This document shows positions 7,445-14,675 of a stretch of DNA of 64,000 bases, piece after piece; the stretch's first letter is position 1; every line of letters begins with the position of its first letter. The DNA lies in contig NZ_FNAM01000030.1 of the NCBI RefSeq assembly GCF_900101845.1, forward strand, positions 1-64,000, written 5' to 3'. This DNA comes from Sporomusa acidovorans. Its GTDB lineage: Bacteria > Bacillota > Negativicutes > Sporomusales > Sporomusaceae. The notes below the pieces were generated by a model. The model saw nothing but the letters and a program-made list of their open reading frames with translations. It did not search any database and was not told the DNA's origin. A program made the position numbers and the translations under genes.

Positions 7445-7497
7445 TGCAAAAATACGGATGTATGCAAAAATGCAGATTATATACCTGCGTTTTTGCA
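7445..7497. promoter_or_regulatory. Upstream activator sites for a sigma-54 activator
   Basis: Three near-identical boxes: TGCAAAAATACG (7445-7456), TGCAAAAATGCA (7463-7474) and, inverted, TGCGTTTTTGCA (7486-7497). They lie about 300 bp upstream of the -24/-12 promoter, the usual distance for enhancer-binding proteins. The same boxes recur at 13594-13646 after the activator gene. Confidence 0.65.
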
Positions 7498-7756
7498 TGT
7501 GGGTGGATACTTAGTATTTAGTCCAGAATTAATTTAAAGAACATAGTGTTTCACTTTATTTTATTTTTAGAAGTAAACGCCTTAAACATTTGTAGCTTTT
7601 TATAGGGGATAAAGAATTCAGTTTTAAGAAGTCAAAATAAGTGTTGTAGTTCCAGGATTTTAAAGAATTTATACGCAATTCTGCAATAAATTTTTGTGAG
7701 CTTTTAATATATAAATAAGAGCATAAAGAAGCAATATTATAATTTTATCAAAGCAT

Positions 7757-7798
7757 AATTAAAGCCAATTGTTCTATTTTGAACAATTGGCTTTAATT
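7757..7798. repeat. Perfect 18-bp inverted repeat abutting the sigma-54 promoter
   Basis: AATTAAAGCCAATTGTTC (7757-7774) and its exact complement (7781-7798) flank TATTTT. It ends 2 nt before the -24 element. It could terminate upstream transcription, bend DNA or bind a protein. The remaining sequence between 7500 and 7757 is AT-rich without features. Confidence 0.7.
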
Positions 7799-7799
7799 A

Positions 7800-7815
7800 T
7801 GGCATGGAATTTGCA
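7800..7815 (+). promoter_or_regulatory. Sigma-54 (-24/-12) promoter
   Basis: TGGCATGGAATTTGCA matches the sigma-54 consensus, with GG at 7801-7802 and GC at 7813-7814 separated by exactly 10 bp. It reads toward the acyl-CoA dehydrogenase operon and leaves a leader of about 200 nt. The operon's last gene encodes a sigma-54 activator domain, which supports the call. Confidence 0.85.
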
Positions 7816-8027
7816 ATTAAATAACAATAAATTGAGTAAAGGGGGAAAAGGTAATCTCTGTATCCAGGTTGCTAACGGGGTTGCTGGATATTAGACTGGC
7901 TTAATCATCACAATGCCACAGACGGTAAGCAATATGTAGGCCTTTGAGGTTGAGACAGTTTATATTGAAAGTTTCGGCGTTGGCGTTAGATTAAAAATGC
8001 ATTTAGTGGACTAAGGAGGATTTAAAA

Positions 8028-9164
8028 ATGGGATTTGAACTGACAGAAGAACAAAGACTTATTCAATCAATGGCACGGGAGTTTGCCATTAATGAAGTAG
8101 CACCGCTTGCTGAGCGCATTGACCGTGACGGGGAGTTTCCGACTGTAGCAAGGAATCGTTTGGCGGAACTTGAACTGACAGGTATTCCTACTCCTGCCGA
8201 GTATGGTGGTGGTGGTGCTGATTACGTGAGCTATGCGCTTGTAATTGAAGAAATAGCTAAGGTATGCGCTTCAACGGCGGTCGTTCTTGCCGTTCATACA
8301 TTGGCGCAAGCGCCGATACTCAAGTTCGGGACTCCAGAGCAAAAAGCTAAATTCCTACCAATGCTTGCCGGCTATAAGGCGCTTGGCGGATTTGCATTGA
8401 CGGAAGCAGGCGCCGGTTCAGATGCTGGTGCGCTAGCCACAACGGCAGTTTTGGAAGGCGACCATTATGTTATTAATGGGACTAAAACTTTCATTACAAA
8501 CGGCGATGGAGCTGGCGTAATGATTGTCATGGCTAAAACCGGGCCAGGTGAAGGTACCAAGGGCATCAGCGCGTTTATTGTAGAAAAGAATGAATCGCCA
8601 TACACAGTTGGCAAACATGAAGATAAGATGGGAGTAAGAGGTTCTCATACTACAGAGCTGATTTTTAAGAACTGCAAAGTTCCCAAAGAAAACTTACTGG
8701 GTAAAATCGGTCAAGGATTTAAAGTTGCTATGGCTACGTTGGATGGCGGACGTATTGGCATTGCGGCACAAGCTGTGGGTATTGCCCAAGCTTGTTTAGA
8801 TGAATCAGTGCGTTATTCAAAAGAACGTAAGCAGTTTGGCCGCCCAATTGCTGCTAATCAGGCTATCCAATGGATGATTGCAGATATGGCTAAGGATGTT
8901 TTGGCAGCAAGATTACTGGTGCATAATGCTGCAGCGCTGTGCGACAGCGGACAACCTTTCAGCTTGGAAGCTGCTGCGGCAAAGCTGTTTGCTGCCGAAA
9001 CTGCCATGAAACATTCTATCAAAGCTGTTCAAATTAATGGCGGTTATGGTTATATTCGCGGTGCCAAAGTAGAACGTCTCATGCGGGATGCAAAAATTAC
9101 AGAGATTTATGAGGGCACCTCAGAAGTGCAAAGAATGGTTATTTCAGGTATGACCTTGAGATAA
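8028..9164 (+). CDS. Acyl-CoA dehydrogenase (short-chain/butyryl-CoA type)
   Basis: 378 residues, full family length. It shows the N-terminal helical domain, the central F-A-L-T-E-A-G-A-G-S-D-A FAD/substrate motif (about residues 124-135), and the C-terminal R-x-x-F-G-R and I-Y-E-G-T-S-E-V-Q motif. Glu362 is at the position of the catalytic base. It oxidises acyl-CoA or, with EtfAB, reduces enoyl-CoA in the cytoplasm. AAGGAGG precedes ATG 8028. It is the first gene of a sigma-54-driven operon with etfB, etfA and a fixC-like frame. Ferredoxin-linked bifurcation, as in Bcd-EtfAB, is possible, but the chain length and direction cannot be read from the sequence. Confidence 0.92.
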   Translation: MGFELTEEQRLIQSMAREFAINEVAPLAERIDRDGEFPTVARNRLAELELTGIPTPAEYGGGGADYVSYALVIEEIAKVCASTAVVLAVHTLAQAPILKFGTPEQKAKFLPMLAGYKALGGFALTEAGAGSDAGALATTAVLEGDHYVINGTKTFITNGDGAGVMIVMAKTGPGEGTKGISAFIVEKNESPYTVGKHEDKMGVRGSHTTELIFKNCKVPKENLLGKIGQGFKVAMATLDGGRIGIAAQAVGIAQACLDESVRYSKERKQFGRPIAANQAIQWMIADMAKDVLAARLLVHNAAALCDSGQPFSLEAAAAKLFAAETAMKHSIKAVQINGGYGYIRGAKVERLMRDAKITEIYEGTSEVQRMVISGMTLR

Positions 9165-9210: not shown

Positions 9211-9990
9211 ATGCCCAACATTATAGCTTGTTATAAATGGGTGCCAGATGAGCAAGATATAAAGCTTAATCCATCCACGATGGCACTTGACTTTAGCAAG
9301 GCCAAATATAAAATTAGTGAATACGATCGCAATGCCATAGAAGAGGCTGTACTACTCAATCAAAAAAATGGTGGTAGCGTAACGGCCCTCACCTTTGGTA
9401 ATGCAGGCGCCAAACAGTCACTAAAGGATGCTTTGTCGCGCGGTCCGGGAAAAGCCATATTCGTAAATGATGAATTGGCTGCTAAATCCGACGCGTATGT
9501 TACGGCGAATGTATTGGCTGCTGCTGTCCGCAAAGCTGGTTCTTATGATGTTATACTTTGCGGTGAAGGCGCAGGAGATACCTATGCTCAACAAGTTGGG
9601 CCGCGTATAGCTGCAATCCTTGGTATTCCTGCCGTTACTTATGTTAGTGAGATCAAAATAGAAGGCAATAAGGTTGTTGCTACCCGTAAGGTAGGAAATT
9701 GTACTGAAGTAGCAACCGTAGAATTCCCAGTTTTGATAAGTGTATTACCAGAGATTAATAAACCGCGAATTCCCAGTTTGAAAGAAGTGCTCGGAGCTAC
9801 CAAGAAACCGGTGTTTGAGTATAAGCTGAGTGAACTGGAACTATCCGAAGATGAGTTAACAGCAAAAAACAACGTTAAGGCGATTAAAGGCTATGTCATG
9901 AGTCGCAAAAATGTAATTTATAAAGCCGGGACAGCTGCGGAAAGGGTAGCCAGTCTTGTCGGTAATCTTGCCCAAGAAGGCGTACTGTAA
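9211..9990 (+). CDS. etfB: Electron transfer flavoprotein beta subunit (EtfB/FixA)
   Basis: 259 residues. The N-terminal half has the EtfB pattern C-Y-K-W-V-P-D, then I-S-E-Y-D-R-N-A-I-E-E-A-V and G-P-G-K-A. The middle carries V-I-L-C-G-E-G-A-G-D-T-Y-A-Q-Q-V-G-P, which contacts the second cofactor (AMP, or FAD in bifurcating forms). It pairs with EtfA to shuttle electrons between the acyl-CoA dehydrogenase and its partner. The gene follows the dehydrogenase by 46 nt with AAAGGGGAC as ribosome site and precedes etfA by 16 nt. FixA-type members often work with a FixC quinone oxidoreductase, the remains of which follow. Confidence 0.93.
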   Translation: MPNIIACYKWVPDEQDIKLNPSTMALDFSKAKYKISEYDRNAIEEAVLLNQKNGGSVTALTFGNAGAKQSLKDALSRGPGKAIFVNDELAAKSDAYVTANVLAAAVRKAGSYDVILCGEGAGDTYAQQVGPRIAAILGIPAVTYVSEIKIEGNKVVATRKVGNCTEVATVEFPVLISVLPEINKPRIPSLKEVLGATKKPVFEYKLSELELSEDELTAKNNVKAIKGYVMSRKNVIYKAGTAAERVASLVGNLAQEGVL

Positions 9991-10006: not shown

Positions 10007-10945
10007 ATGCCAGCTATTTGGGTTTATTCAGAAGATGTTACTATTACACAGCAACTGCTTGCGCTAGGAAGAAATTTAGCTGATAATATGCAGACTCAGT
10101 TATGCGCCTTTACGCTGAATGGCGAAAGTGCAACCTCCCTTATTGCGTCGGGGGCGGATAAAGTAGTTTCTTTGCAGGGCAACAGTCAGTGGCCGGAAAG
10201 TTACGCACAGTCATTGGCAGATTTGGCAAAGCAGGAGCGCCCTGAAGCTGTTTTTATTGGTGCCACGCAACGGGGTAAAGATCTCGCAGCTAAGGTTGCT
10301 GCCATAATTAAGACCGGGCTTGTTACGGAAGCTTTTGCAGTACGAATTGCTGACGGAGCGATTGAGACCGACAGAATTATGTATGGAGGTTTAGCCATAT
10401 GTACCGAAATACTTACTGCACCGGCTATAGTTACCATTCCGGCAAGAACATATGAAGCTATTTCACCAGATCCGAATCGAACTGGCGAAATAGTAACAAT
10501 GGACGTGAAAACCGATGATCGAGTGAGTGTAAGCAATGTATGCCCGATTATCAGGGAAGGTGCTGATATTTCAATCGCCGATAAACTGGTTTGTGTGGGA
10601 CGTGGCCTAGCAAAACAGGAAGATATGAGACTGGTCGAAGATCTTGCCGTTGCCCTCGGTGCAGAAATCGGTTGTACGCGAGGCATTGCTGAAGATTACC
10701 ATTGGCTTCCTAATGATCGATATATTGGCTTATCTGGACAAAAAATTAAGCCAAGTCTCTATATATCACTTGGTATTTCGGGTCAAGTTCAGCATGTTTC
10801 GGGTATTCGAGACTCAAAAATCATTGTGGCAATTGATATGAATGAGAACGCTCCCATCTTTGAAGCCGCTGATTATGGTATTGTGGGTGACCTGTATGAA
10901 ATTTCCCCGCTTTTGACCGAGGCTATAAAACAAGCGGTCAAATAA
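10007..10945 (+). CDS. etfA: Electron transfer flavoprotein alpha subunit (EtfA/FixB)
   Basis: 312 residues from ATG 10007, which follows GGAAGGGGGA; an in-frame GTG at 9956 lies inside etfB and is rejected. The C-terminal half holds the FAD-binding domain: V-C-V-G-R-G-L, then L-A-V-A-L-G-A-E-I-G-C-T-R, Y-I-G-L-S-G-Q-K-I-K-P-S-L-Y-I-S-L-G-I-S-G-Q-V-Q-H and I-V-A-I-D-M-N-E-N-A-P-I-F. These match the ETF alpha signature. It forms the heterodimer with EtfB. The fixC-like fusion gene starts 21 nt after its stop. Confidence 0.93.
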   Translation: MPAIWVYSEDVTITQQLLALGRNLADNMQTQLCAFTLNGESATSLIASGADKVVSLQGNSQWPESYAQSLADLAKQERPEAVFIGATQRGKDLAAKVAAIIKTGLVTEAFAVRIADGAIETDRIMYGGLAICTEILTAPAIVTIPARTYEAISPDPNRTGEIVTMDVKTDDRVSVSNVCPIIREGADISIADKLVCVGRGLAKQEDMRLVEDLAVALGAEIGCTRGIAEDYHWLPNDRYIGLSGQKIKPSLYISLGISGQVQHVSGIRDSKIIVAIDMNENAPIFEAADYGIVGDLYEISPLLTEAIKQAVK

Positions 10946-10966: not shown

Positions 10967-13471
10967 GTGAGTGTTGAGGAACGTTTTGATGCTATTATAA
11001 TTGGGGCAGGGCCAGCCGGCAGTGCCTGTGCATATGTGCTTGCCAAGGCGGGAAAAAGCGTATTGCTTGTTGAACGAGGTGATACCGCAGGCAGTAAAAA
11101 TGTCACTGGCGGGCGAGTGTATACCTATGCGCTTGAAATGGTGGAACCGGGTCTTTTTGCCCAAGCTCCATTGGAACGCAAAGTAGTTCGTGAGCAAATC
11201 ATGATGCTGAGCAGTACAAGCGGTATAACAATCGATTATGTTAATTATGAGTTTGGAGAAAACGTACCGCAATCATATACTGTTTTACGGGCTCCTTTTG
11301 ATGAATGGTTTGCTGGGCAAGCAGAAGCTCAGGGAGCTATGTTTACCGCTGGCATTTTAGTGGATGAGCTTATTGAAGCCGATGGAAAAATTGTCGGTAT
11401 AAAAGCCGGTGGCGATGAGATGTATGCTGATGTAGTAATTGCTGCTGATGGCGTAAATTCTTTTATTGCACAAAAGGCTGGTTTACTTTCAGATATTGCA
11501 GCTCATACGGTGGGAGTCGGCGCAAAAGAAATCATTCAATTGCCACCGGATGTTATTCAAAACAGATTCAATCTGGGTGAAGAGGAAGGTGTTGCCCGGG
11601 TAGCTCTGGGCGCGTCTGCCGGAGTGACTGGAGGAGGATTTTTCTATACCAACAAAGACAGTATTTCTCTGGGACTTGTTTTAAATCCAGAAGAACTGGC
11701 ACGAAGCGGTAAAAAAATCCACGATTTGTTACAGGAATACAAGTTGCATCCTGCGATTTACCCACTTATCAAAGATGGTACGACAATTGAATACGGAGCT
11801 CACTTAGTACCAGAACTTGGCTTCGTTTATATAGATAGAAATGGTTGTATTCATGCCATGAACGAAAAGGCTAAAAGTTATTTTCTTGAACTGGTAACAG
11901 GTCAAACATTTTATAAGATTTATCCCTGGTTTCGAAATGATTGGCTTAATGGAAAAGTTAAAGCCAGATTGGTGAAAACATCACAAGATGTCAAGGTATT
12001 AATGGATATTATTCCGGACCCAAAACAGGAAGAGTACATATATCTGTTATTTAAAAATGTTGACGAATATCGCAATCTCATCCATCTTTGGTGTGAAGTT
12101 GAGGACTCTCTCATAAGGCTCCAGCCATTTATTGATAACTCCTACGACGGAGTTATCATTACGAACGGTGACGGGACAGTACGGGCGATAAATCACGCAT
12201 TCTCTATGGTTTCTGGTCTAACGGAGGAGGATGTTATTGGGAAGACGGTATATGATTTGAGTAAACAAGACCTTCTGCCCGAATGCTCTATGATGCATGC
12301 TATTGAACGAAGGCGAGACGAGAGTTCAGTAGTGAAATTTCCACATGGTAAAGAAACAGTAATCTCAAGCAAACTTCTTTGTGATAAGCAGGGTAATATT
12401 ATTCGCGTGCTTTCCAATGTACGTGATATTACTGAACTTGAGAATTTACACGAAAAACTTAGGTCTGCAGAGGCGATTGCCAAACATTATCAGCACGAAT
12501 TTAATGCTAAGATTGCTTCGGAAAGCAGCTTGAATTTGGAACTAAATCGTAGTCGGATAATGGGGGATGTATATGAGCTTGTAAAAAAAGTGGCAGATAC
12601 CGATTTGCCTTTGCTTATATTGGGAGAATCTGGTGTTGGCAAGACTGCTCTTGCCAAGTATATTCATGCAATAAGTGAACGAAATAGTACGGGTAGTTTT
12701 GTTCATATTAATTGCAGTGCTATTCCAGAGGCGTTGCTGGAGTCGGAATTGTTTGGATATGAGGCTGGAGCTTTTACTGGTGCAAAAAAAGCAAAGGTTG
12801 GGCTGTTTGAGATTGCGGAAAAAGGGACAATCCTCCTTGATGAGATCGGCGATATGCCTTTGTCGCTGCAGGCAAAACTATTAAATGTTTTGCAAGAGAA
12901 GAAATTTTATCGTGTCGGTGGGACTAAAATTGTCGAAGCTGATGTTCGTGTATTAGCGGCTACTAATCAAAACCTGGAGCAGTTGGTCGCCGGAGGGCGA
13001 TTCCGACGTGATTTATATTTTCGACTCAATGTAATTCCAGTCACGATTCCCGCTCTACGTGAGCGGAAAGAAGATATAGTTCCATTATTAGCCTATTTTT
13101 TAGAGCAAAATAATCAAAAGTATAAATGTTCTAAAGTTTTTTCATCAGAAACCCTGGAGGTTCTTTTAAACTATGAGTGGCCGGGGAATATCCGTGAGAT
13201 CATAAATGTAGTGGAAAGGCTTGTGATTTTAACAAAGGAAGATATTATTGAACCCAGGCATCTTTCCACGCAGGTAGCCAGCGAGCATAAATTATTGGGA
13301 TCGTTAAGCAGTAAGTTGTCTAACGATAATGAGAAAAGCCAAGAAGAAGCGGTTGTTCTGTGGACCCCAGGGGAATCACTGAAAGAGACTGTTAGTAAAA
13401 TTGAGGGACGAATCATCGAAGAAGCGATATCATTCTATGGTACGCTATGGTACGGCAAAATTAGCTGCTAA
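10967..13471 (+). CDS. FixC-like flavoprotein fused in frame to a PAS/sigma-54 activator, C-terminally frameshifted
   Basis: 834 residues from GTG 10967 (AAAGGGGAAGG upstream). Residues 1-285 are the N-terminal two-thirds of a FixC/ETF-quinone oxidoreductase: I-I-I-G-A-G-P-A-G-S-A at 9-19 and I-E-Y-G-A-H-L-V-P-E near 275-284. At residue 285-286 (nt about 11820) the sequence changes to F-V-Y-I-D-R-N-G, the start of a PAS-like sensor. A second PAS lies near 385-500, then the AAA+ domain with G-E-S-G-V-G-K-T (about 552), G-A-F-T-G-A (about 600) and L-L-D-E-I-G-D (about 621). The FixC C-terminus and the fixX ferredoxin gene normally following are missing. A 10-bp duplication at 13435-13454 ends the protein before its Fis-type HTH. 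I infer a deletion-born chimera, but an assembly artefact is not excluded. Confidence 0.85.
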   Translation: MSVEERFDAIIIGAGPAGSACAYVLAKAGKSVLLVERGDTAGSKNVTGGRVYTYALEMVEPGLFAQAPLERKVVREQIMMLSSTSGITIDYVNYEFGENVPQSYTVLRAPFDEWFAGQAEAQGAMFTAGILVDELIEADGKIVGIKAGGDEMYADVVIAADGVNSFIAQKAGLLSDIAAHTVGVGAKEIIQLPPDVIQNRFNLGEEEGVARVALGASAGVTGGGFFYTNKDSISLGLVLNPEELARSGKKIHDLLQEYKLHPAIYPLIKDGTTIEYGAHLVPELGFVYIDRNGCIHAMNEKAKSYFLELVTGQTFYKIYPWFRNDWLNGKVKARLVKTSQDVKVLMDIIPDPKQEEYIYLLFKNVDEYRNLIHLWCEVEDSLIRLQPFIDNSYDGVIITNGDGTVRAINHAFSMVSGLTEEDVIGKTVYDLSKQDLLPECSMMHAIERRRDESSVVKFPHGKETVISSKLLCDKQGNIIRVLSNVRDITELENLHEKLRSAEAIAKHYQHEFNAKIASESSLNLELNRSRIMGDVYELVKKVADTDLPLLILGESGVGKTALAKYIHAISERNSTGSFVHINCSAIPEALLESELFGYEAGAFTGAKKAKVGLFEIAEKGTILLDEIGDMPLSLQAKLLNVLQEKKFYRVGGTKIVEADVRVLAATNQNLEQLVAGGRFRRDLYFRLNVIPVTIPALRERKEDIVPLLAYFLEQNNQKYKCSKVFSSETLEVLLNYEWPGNIREIINVVERLVILTKEDIIEPRHLSTQVASEHKLLGSLSSKLSNDNEKSQEEAVVLWTPGESLKETVSKIEGRIIEEAISFYGTLWYGKISC
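13435..13454 (+). repeat. 10-bp tandem duplication causing a frameshift
   Basis: CTATGGTACG occurs twice in direct tandem (13435-13444 and 13445-13454). Removing one copy restores the frame F-Y-G-T-A-K-L-A-A-K-K-L-G-V-D-E-S-T-I-T, a normal Fis-type HTH ending. Confidence 0.9.
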
Positions 13472-13593: not shown

Positions 13594-13646
13594 TGCAAAA
13601 ATGCAATTACGTGCAAAAATGCAAATTAAGCACAAGTATTTTTGCA
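13594..13646. promoter_or_regulatory. Second cluster of activator boxes, no promoter attached
   Basis: TGCAAAAATGCA occurs at 13594-13605 and 13612-13623, and the inverted AGTATTTTTGCA at 13635-13646. The spacing and orientation copy the cluster at 7445-7497. No -24/-12 element or intact gene follows, so the operon it served appears to be lost. Confidence 0.65.
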
Positions 13647-13740: not shown

Positions 13741-14196
13741 CTCATATCTAGCATAGTTTTTACGTTTAGCAATCATCCGACTTCAATTACTAATCCCAGT
13801 CATTGCCCACAAAAGATTAATAGTCAAAGTGAAAAAATAAAACTGATTAAAGAATTACATATTGACATTTTGATGAATATACCATTTACTCAGCAATTAT
13901 CAACAATAGCACCTGAAAAATTTATAAAATTGCTTTGTGATAACATAAATCCCGAAGTTATTGTAGTTGGACCGAATTTCTCTTTCGGTTATAAAGGGCG
14001 GGGATCGCCTAAAACACTTGTAGCATTCGAGAAGCTTTACAGATTTAAAACGGAGATTTCAGAATTTGTTTTAATTAATAAAACTATTGTCAGTAGTACG
14101 TTAATACGTAAGTTGATTGCCGAAGGTCAGTATATGCAGGTGGAACGTTTTTGGGGGAGAGCTTTTCATCCTGAGGTTAAATTTGCTGTATACTAG
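13741..14196 (+). pseudogene. FAD synthetase (RibF-type nucleotidyltransferase) fragment
   Basis: The open stretch encodes V-F-T-F-S-N-H-P, then E-L-H-I-D-I-L-M-N-I-P-F-T-Q-Q-L, P-E-V-I-V-V-G-P-N-F-S-F-G and V-S-S-T-L-I-R-K-L-I. These are successive blocks of the RibF adenylyltransferase domain. The first about 35 residues, with the G-x-F-D-G-x-H-x-G-H nucleotide motif, are absent. The C-terminal riboflavin kinase domain is missing too. The frame runs into IS1182 sequence near 14170-14196. Stand-alone FAD synthetases sometimes accompany ETF genes, so it may have belonged to the neighbouring flavoprotein operon. Confidence 0.7.
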
Positions 14197-14197
14197 G

Positions 14198-14675
14198 GAA
14201 GCTTTTACAAAAGGAGTCATTGCGAAGAAGGAAGCGAAAGCAAATGGAACTGGCGACAGAGAATTTTATACGGATAGATTTCGTTATGATGCCGAAAAGA
14301 AAGCATACCTATGTCCGGCTGGCAAAGAACTTTATTATGCCAGAAAACGAACCAGTAAAAAACGAGGCGTCATAGGCTACGAGTACAGAAATTATGAAGC
14401 CTGTGGTTCCTGCCAATATAAGGAGCGCTGTACTAAAACGTATCATTTGTCGTCATGTCGATCAGGATTTTTTAGATACTATCGACTTGCAGACTGAAAT
14501 TAACAAGGAAAAATATCAGTTAAGGCAAATGATCATAGAACACGTTTTTGGCACAATAAAACGTGGCTGGGAAGCTTACTACTTTCTGACCAAACGAAAG
14601 CTATCGGTCATTGGGGAGATTTCTTTGTCCTTTTTGGCCTATAACCTTAGGCGAGCTATAAATATTAGGTTTTAA
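14198..14675 (+). pseudogene. IS1182-family transposase remnant (C-terminal part, frameshifted)
   Basis: The first frame reads F-Y-T-D-R-F-R-Y-D-A-E-K-K-A-Y-L-C-P-A-G-K-E-L and A-C-G-S-C-Q-Y-K-E-R-C-T-K-T. The frame shifts near 14437 and continues R-Q-M-I-I-E-H-V-F-G-T-I-K-R-G-W, then L-S-F-L-A-Y-N-L-R-R-A-I-N-I, ending at 14675. This is the zinc-like Cys region and the last catalytic-Glu region of IS1182 DDE transposases. The N-terminal half and inverted repeats are absent. It truncates the FAD-synthetase fragment. Confidence 0.8.

Follow-up and report, generated by a model that had tools for sequence, protein, structure and literature searches.

Why should the same array of short repeats stand at two places in one locus, once ahead of a sigma-54 promoter and again just behind the gene of the likely activator? 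The window analysed here, the whole 64,000-nucleotide (64-kb) stretch from Sporomusa acidovorans, contains two such arrays (clusters A and B), which enclose the operon acd-etfB-etfA-fixC and the activator gene that follows it. It is very probable that both are UAS copies of one activator, with A serving acd-etfB-etfA-fixC and B having served an operon that is now lost.

A consensus -24/-12 promoter, three boxes roughly 300 bp upstream of it, and the same three-box pattern after the activator gene had been claimed from a sequence-only reading, and each of these elements was recovered. The promoter, TGGCATGGAATTTGCA, was located by motif scan at 7800-7815 on the forward strand and fits TGGCAY-N5-TTGCW; the same element is present at the ortholog loci described below, and it is conserved in seven related promoters, in one of them with one mismatch. 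The other exact TGGCA-N6-TTGC of the window (41632) was discarded as it lies inside a gene. Cluster A, identified by box scan and array statistics, comprises candidate UAS boxes at 7445-7456 (TGCAAAAATACG) and 7463-7474 (TGCAAAAATGCA) on the forward strand, the second starting 18 bp after the first, and an inverted candidate box on the reverse strand at 7486-7497 (TGCAAAAACGCA), a further 23 bp on; its last box is 302 bases from the promoter. Cluster B, from the box scan, has candidate boxes of the form TGCAAAAATGCA at 13594-13605 and 13612-13623 on the forward strand and an inverted one, TGCAAAAATACT, at 13635-13646 on the reverse strand. Both clusters therefore share one layout, two direct TGCAAAAATGCA boxes followed by one inverted, with identical start-to-start distances of 18 and 23 bp.

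When mismatches were summed over the three boxes, cluster A had 3 of 36 and cluster B 2 of 36, against 11 for the best array in 100 Markov-shuffled versions of the window sequence (6.4 Mb, both strands). Single boxes behave differently: 21 with two or fewer mismatches were counted in the window against 17 expected, which is chance level, and these counts were consequently rejected as evidence. Dozens of one-mismatch single boxes occur across the genome, where the control was the reversed pattern, whose dinucleotide make-up differs from that of the original. Two other exact single boxes in the genome (C20:35152 and C21:12910) have no -24/-12 element nearby. In the 5.996-Mb genome the inverted pair TGCAAAA-N18-24-TTTTGCA is found at four places and the direct pair TGCAAAA-N9-13-TGCAAAA at five, and the two types coincide only at clusters A and B. 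A search of the same genome for a second copy of the circuit, by activator-like genes and box pairs, found none, and the control region gave zero matches to plasmid records and zero to Rfam.

Between the two clusters, all on the forward strand, lie the genes that the promoter precedes. The first of the operon is an acyl-CoA dehydrogenase, acd (8028-9164; assigned by Pfam, with AcrC the nearest NCBIfam model, below its cut-off), followed by the electron-transfer flavoprotein subunits etfB (FixA-type, 9211-9990) and etfA (FixB-type, 10007-10945), both assigned by Pfam and NCBIfam; all three reading frames are intact in this strain. The fourth, fixC' (10967-11824), is truncated at about residue 286, as judged by alignment with its paralogues in the same genome, which are 75, 66 and 68% identical and some 140 C-terminal residues longer. 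For acd the closest matches come from beyond the genus (79% in G055, 72% in G033), and eight genomes from within it gave none at E 1e-150 or better, which suggests that the acd operon was gained horizontally.

The activator gene (11825-13471) is joined in frame to fixC', and the resulting open reading frame, 10967-13471, is a chimera, with FixC up to about residue 286 and a PAS-AAA+ sigma-54 activator in the remainder. The activator part lacks its first residues, beginning about 30 residues late or less relative to its orthologs, and DNA similarity to the activator of a congener (G006) starts at 11825. Its AAA+ domain is clear (Pfam Sigma54_activat, 1.6e-65, with GAFTGA present). The helix-turn-helix expected at the C-terminus of a bEBP is absent, as the frame is left before the recognition helix at a 10-bp tandem duplication on the forward strand (CTATGGTACG twice, 13435-13454). 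The closest other activator in this genome is 39% identical over most of its length. The genome (6 Mb) holds a large set of sigma-54 activators, with about 70 matches, and several of these adjoin operons for acyl-CoA dehydrogenase, EtfAB or FixC.

Searching with the N-terminal half of the activator against 380 genomes of the class and against GTDB contigs identified orthologous PAS-AAA+ activators, 50-78% identical, in five other genomes: G006 (same genus, 78%), the MAG contig L091 (74-76%), G048 (the Sporomusaceae MAG of L093), G033 and G015 (Anaerospora hongkongensis). The helix-turn-helix is intact in all five. In four of them (G006, L091, G048 and G033) matching boxes start at or just after the activator stop codon, and a -24/-12 promoter follows 80-220 bp beyond the boxes and leads into an acyl-CoA operon. 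In G006 (L068) the boxes start at 13852, 13871 and 13894 (spacings 19 and 23 bp), the promoter TGGCATCTTTCTTGC is at 14061, and the genes are thl, hbd, CoA-transferase and crt; a second box pair (L069:1566 and 1588) with the promoter TGGCACGCTTATTGC (1715) stands ahead of bcd-etfB-etfA. L091 repeats the arrangement, with boxes at 2746, 2765 and 2788 (again 19 and 23 bp), a promoter at 2953 and then thl-hbd-CoAT-crt, and in both the promoter before this operon has the form TGGCATC..TTCTTGC. In G048 the boxes (11250-11303) and promoter (11385) separate the activator from a livGFKHM-acd operon; in G033 the boxes (10570-10613) and promoter (10335), on the minus strand, separate it from acd-etfBA-CoAT-crt. 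G015 departs from this pattern: only a single box with two mismatches is found after the activator, about 130 bp on, and a weak pair (one box at one mismatch, one at three) stands instead before a CoAT-acd operon, with a promoter that has one mismatch.

Two further features of these loci were seen. At L068 13850-13864 and L091 2744-2758 the activator gene and the first box share sequence over the final codons and the stop (..MQK stop), making the enhancer partly coding. L091 also carries boxes at 724 and 742 (18 bp apart) with a -24/-12 at 909, ahead of the activator gene itself, which suggests that this activator is autoregulated.

The sequence-only reading had named boxes scattered at random, with no link to sigma-54 promoters, as the observation that would count against it. 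This was examined across the genome and in a set of 13 genomes (about 63 Mb); single boxes are scattered, and the paired arrays are not. A threshold of one mismatch or fewer discriminates for the two-box pattern, as matches at two mismatches occur at chance-like rates in all genomes, including those without the activator. At one mismatch or fewer, all matches fall at loci of this activator (clusters A and B of the window genome, G006:C2:93870 and G033:C31:186569), each upstream of a -24/-12 except cluster B. This distribution bears directly on the possibility that the boxes serve another regulator, or form a terminator or hairpin, and stand beside the activator incidentally. The inverted box pair could form a weak hairpin, and the third box of G006 falls within a stem (13885-13898/13905-13918) that has T residues behind it, resembling a terminator of the activator gene. 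A hairpin would, however, leave the direct repeat at 18-19 bp unexplained, and there is no terminator-like site at cluster B and only one weak site, on the minus strand, at cluster A. We consider this alternative unlikely and retain the arrays as candidate bEBP sites, which are present, non-random and conserved alongside the activator, with binding predicted.

As a control, a paralogous acd-CoAT-crt-etfBA-fixC operon adjoining a CBS-domain bEBP in the window genome (G000:C23) was inspected, and it has its own -24/-12 without such boxes. Upstream of that promoter are TCCGACA..TGTCGGA repeats (L144, G000:C23:9000-27000; 7681-8058), which are likely to be the UAS of another activator.

Long inverted repeats were also observed around these promoters. 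In the window a perfect 21-bp inverted repeat with a 6-bp loop abuts the -24 element (7754-7801); no other perfect inverted repeat with a short loop is as long anywhere in the 64 kb. A perfect 26-bp inverted repeat lies between boxes and promoter in G033 (L071 10419-10474), and the -24/-12 is itself one arm of an inverted repeat in G006 (L068 14032-14087; 28 nt, 82%) and in L091 (2933-2970; 19 nt, 95%). Possible roles of such repeats at sigma-54 promoters are a repressor operator, for which the core CAATTGTTC-N6-GAACAATTG is reminiscent of Rex sites, a cruciform or a two-way promoter.

What, then, does cluster B serve? At the position where the relatives have a sigma-54 promoter and an operon, the 1 kb beyond cluster B holds, on the forward strand, a fragment of FAD synthetase (RibF; 13870-14196, Pfam FAD_syn 4.4e-13) and two out-of-frame DDE transposase fragments (14117-14675, Pfam DDE_Tnp_1_6), and the window scan found no -24/-12 downstream of the cluster. 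Because four ortholog loci have boxes, promoter and operon at this point and the window has fragments, the comparison supports the view that cluster B is the leftover UAS of another target operon, formerly situated directly downstream of the activator. The earlier proposal of a second operon replaced by debris thus gains agreement from the ortholog loci, the missing promoter and the gene fragments. To judge from the two nearest relatives, the lost operon was most likely thl-hbd-CoA-transferase-crt; the thiolase of G006 had no match in the window genome, in a search run without an independent positive control.

Cluster B could instead be a recent local duplicate of cluster A, with no lost operon behind it. 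The two share a block of 59 bp at 75% identity, as a duplicate would. The likeness is confined to this box block and ends exactly at the outer boxes, B being without the promoter region of A, and the corresponding block of L091 matches A equally well (75% over 57 bp), so B is not a recent copy of the whole region of A. The position of B also matches that in the relatives, and the four ortholog loci argue that boxes after the activator are ancestral. We give a duplication the very slightest chance.

Nor does it seem probable that cluster B is still in use as a remote enhancer, lying 5.8 kb beyond the operon promoter at 7800, to which it would loop together with A. Sigma-54 activators can work through enhancers that are far away or downstream, and B has kept its boxes no less well than A (two against three mismatches). 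However, the four ortholog loci have a promoter of their own 80-220 bp downstream of the boxes at this place, so that the simpler reading suffices, and the activator that would have to bind lacks its DNA-binding end.

The state of the activator bears on the circuit as a whole. Since its DNA-binding end is lost, the switch is probably out of use in this strain. Frameshift aside, none of the 523 aligned positions of the activator core has a unique change, and the FixC part has unique changes at only 2 of 286. On these grounds we read the damage to both genes as recent, a draft-assembly error being less likely; sequencing mistakes could account for part of the frameshift and fusion, both of which come from a single draft assembly. 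The fusion, apparently by deletion, looks recent, both halves being well conserved. The lack of drift at conserved positions in both halves would also fit a working protein, in which an FAD-binding FixC half and a PAS-AAA+ half without a DNA-binding end would act from solution on the -24/-12 and report the flavin redox state, with its own gene inside the operon that it switches. We regard a functional fusion as very improbable and return to a decaying circuit with two UAS clusters.

The sequences themselves show the arrays of boxes, the promoter, the broken genes and the gene order in relatives; how that circuit would have worked we infer from the general biology of the activator family. The activator would be of the one-component sigma-54 type, with a PAS domain, an AAA+ domain and a helix-turn-helix. 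Members of this family generally bind DNA as dimers, multimerise and loop to a promoter that is opened at the expense of ATP. Here, the PAS domain may sense a signal, perhaps acyl-CoA or redox state; dimers would bind the boxes and multimerise into an AAA+ ring, and through DNA looping the GAFTGA loop would contact sigma-54 polymerase on the -24/-12, with ATP hydrolysis opening the promoter. Cluster A and the promoter at 7800 would in this way control acd-etfB-etfA-fixC. Two observations fit this explanation poorly, namely the 302 bp between cluster A and its promoter, longer than in all relatives (80-220 bp), and the weak and displaced boxes of G015.

The significance of the locus is that it supplies a testable candidate motif together with the spacing of its copies (a direct pair 18-19 bp apart and an inverted box at 23 bp), and predicts a small regulon of butyrate and acyl-CoA operons in Sporomusales-type bacteria for a sigma-54 activator family without a name. 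It also appears to show a circuit caught in decay: the enhancer is still there after the promoter and genes of its operon have gone, and the place where it stands hints at what has vanished.

Among named families, the best-scoring is PrdR (NCBIfam NF041552), the proline-reductase activator, with 386 bits for the window protein and 400 bits for that of G006 against a cut-off of 795. The PAS-AAA+-HTH layout is the same, but the scores are far below the cut-off and the targets are genes of acyl-CoA metabolism rather than prd; none of the NCBIfam equivalogs fits the activator. NtrC/NifA-type promoters likewise combine an AAA+ activator bearing a GAFTGA loop, tandem upstream sites and a -24/-12, whereas the protein here has no receiver domain, its boxes differ in sequence and it scores below the NifA and NtrC family cut-offs. 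Literature searches, with most subscription journals outside their scope, returned only unrelated papers for the 12-mer box and none on sigma-54 UAS motifs in Negativicutes.

The closest parallels are found in the Clostridiales, where, according to PMC6615313, the one-component EBPs CrbR, XcgR, YctR and LeuR control bcd-etfAB and crt-hbd-thl operons through sigma-54 promoters, each preceded by several UAS sites at distances of mostly 100-250 bp. These systems resemble ours in having a PAS-type EBP beside its targets, several UAS (candidates in our case) before a -24/-12, targets in butyrate and acyl-CoA metabolism and a small regulon, from one operon to a few. Compared with that typical distance, the 302 bp of cluster A is long, and the hosts here are Sporomusales-type bacteria, not Clostridiales, with a locus in decay. 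The UAS class given in that text for CrbR and XcgR, the two to which this comparison extends, is an inverted TGT-N10-12-ACA; inverted TGT...ACA with a 10-12 bp spacer does not describe the boxes here, which are TGCAAAAATGCA, of the form TGCA-N4-TGCA (PMC6615313). The layout of EBP-controlled acyl-CoA operons is already known, and what the literature searched did not describe is the candidate box motif for an activator of an unnamed family.
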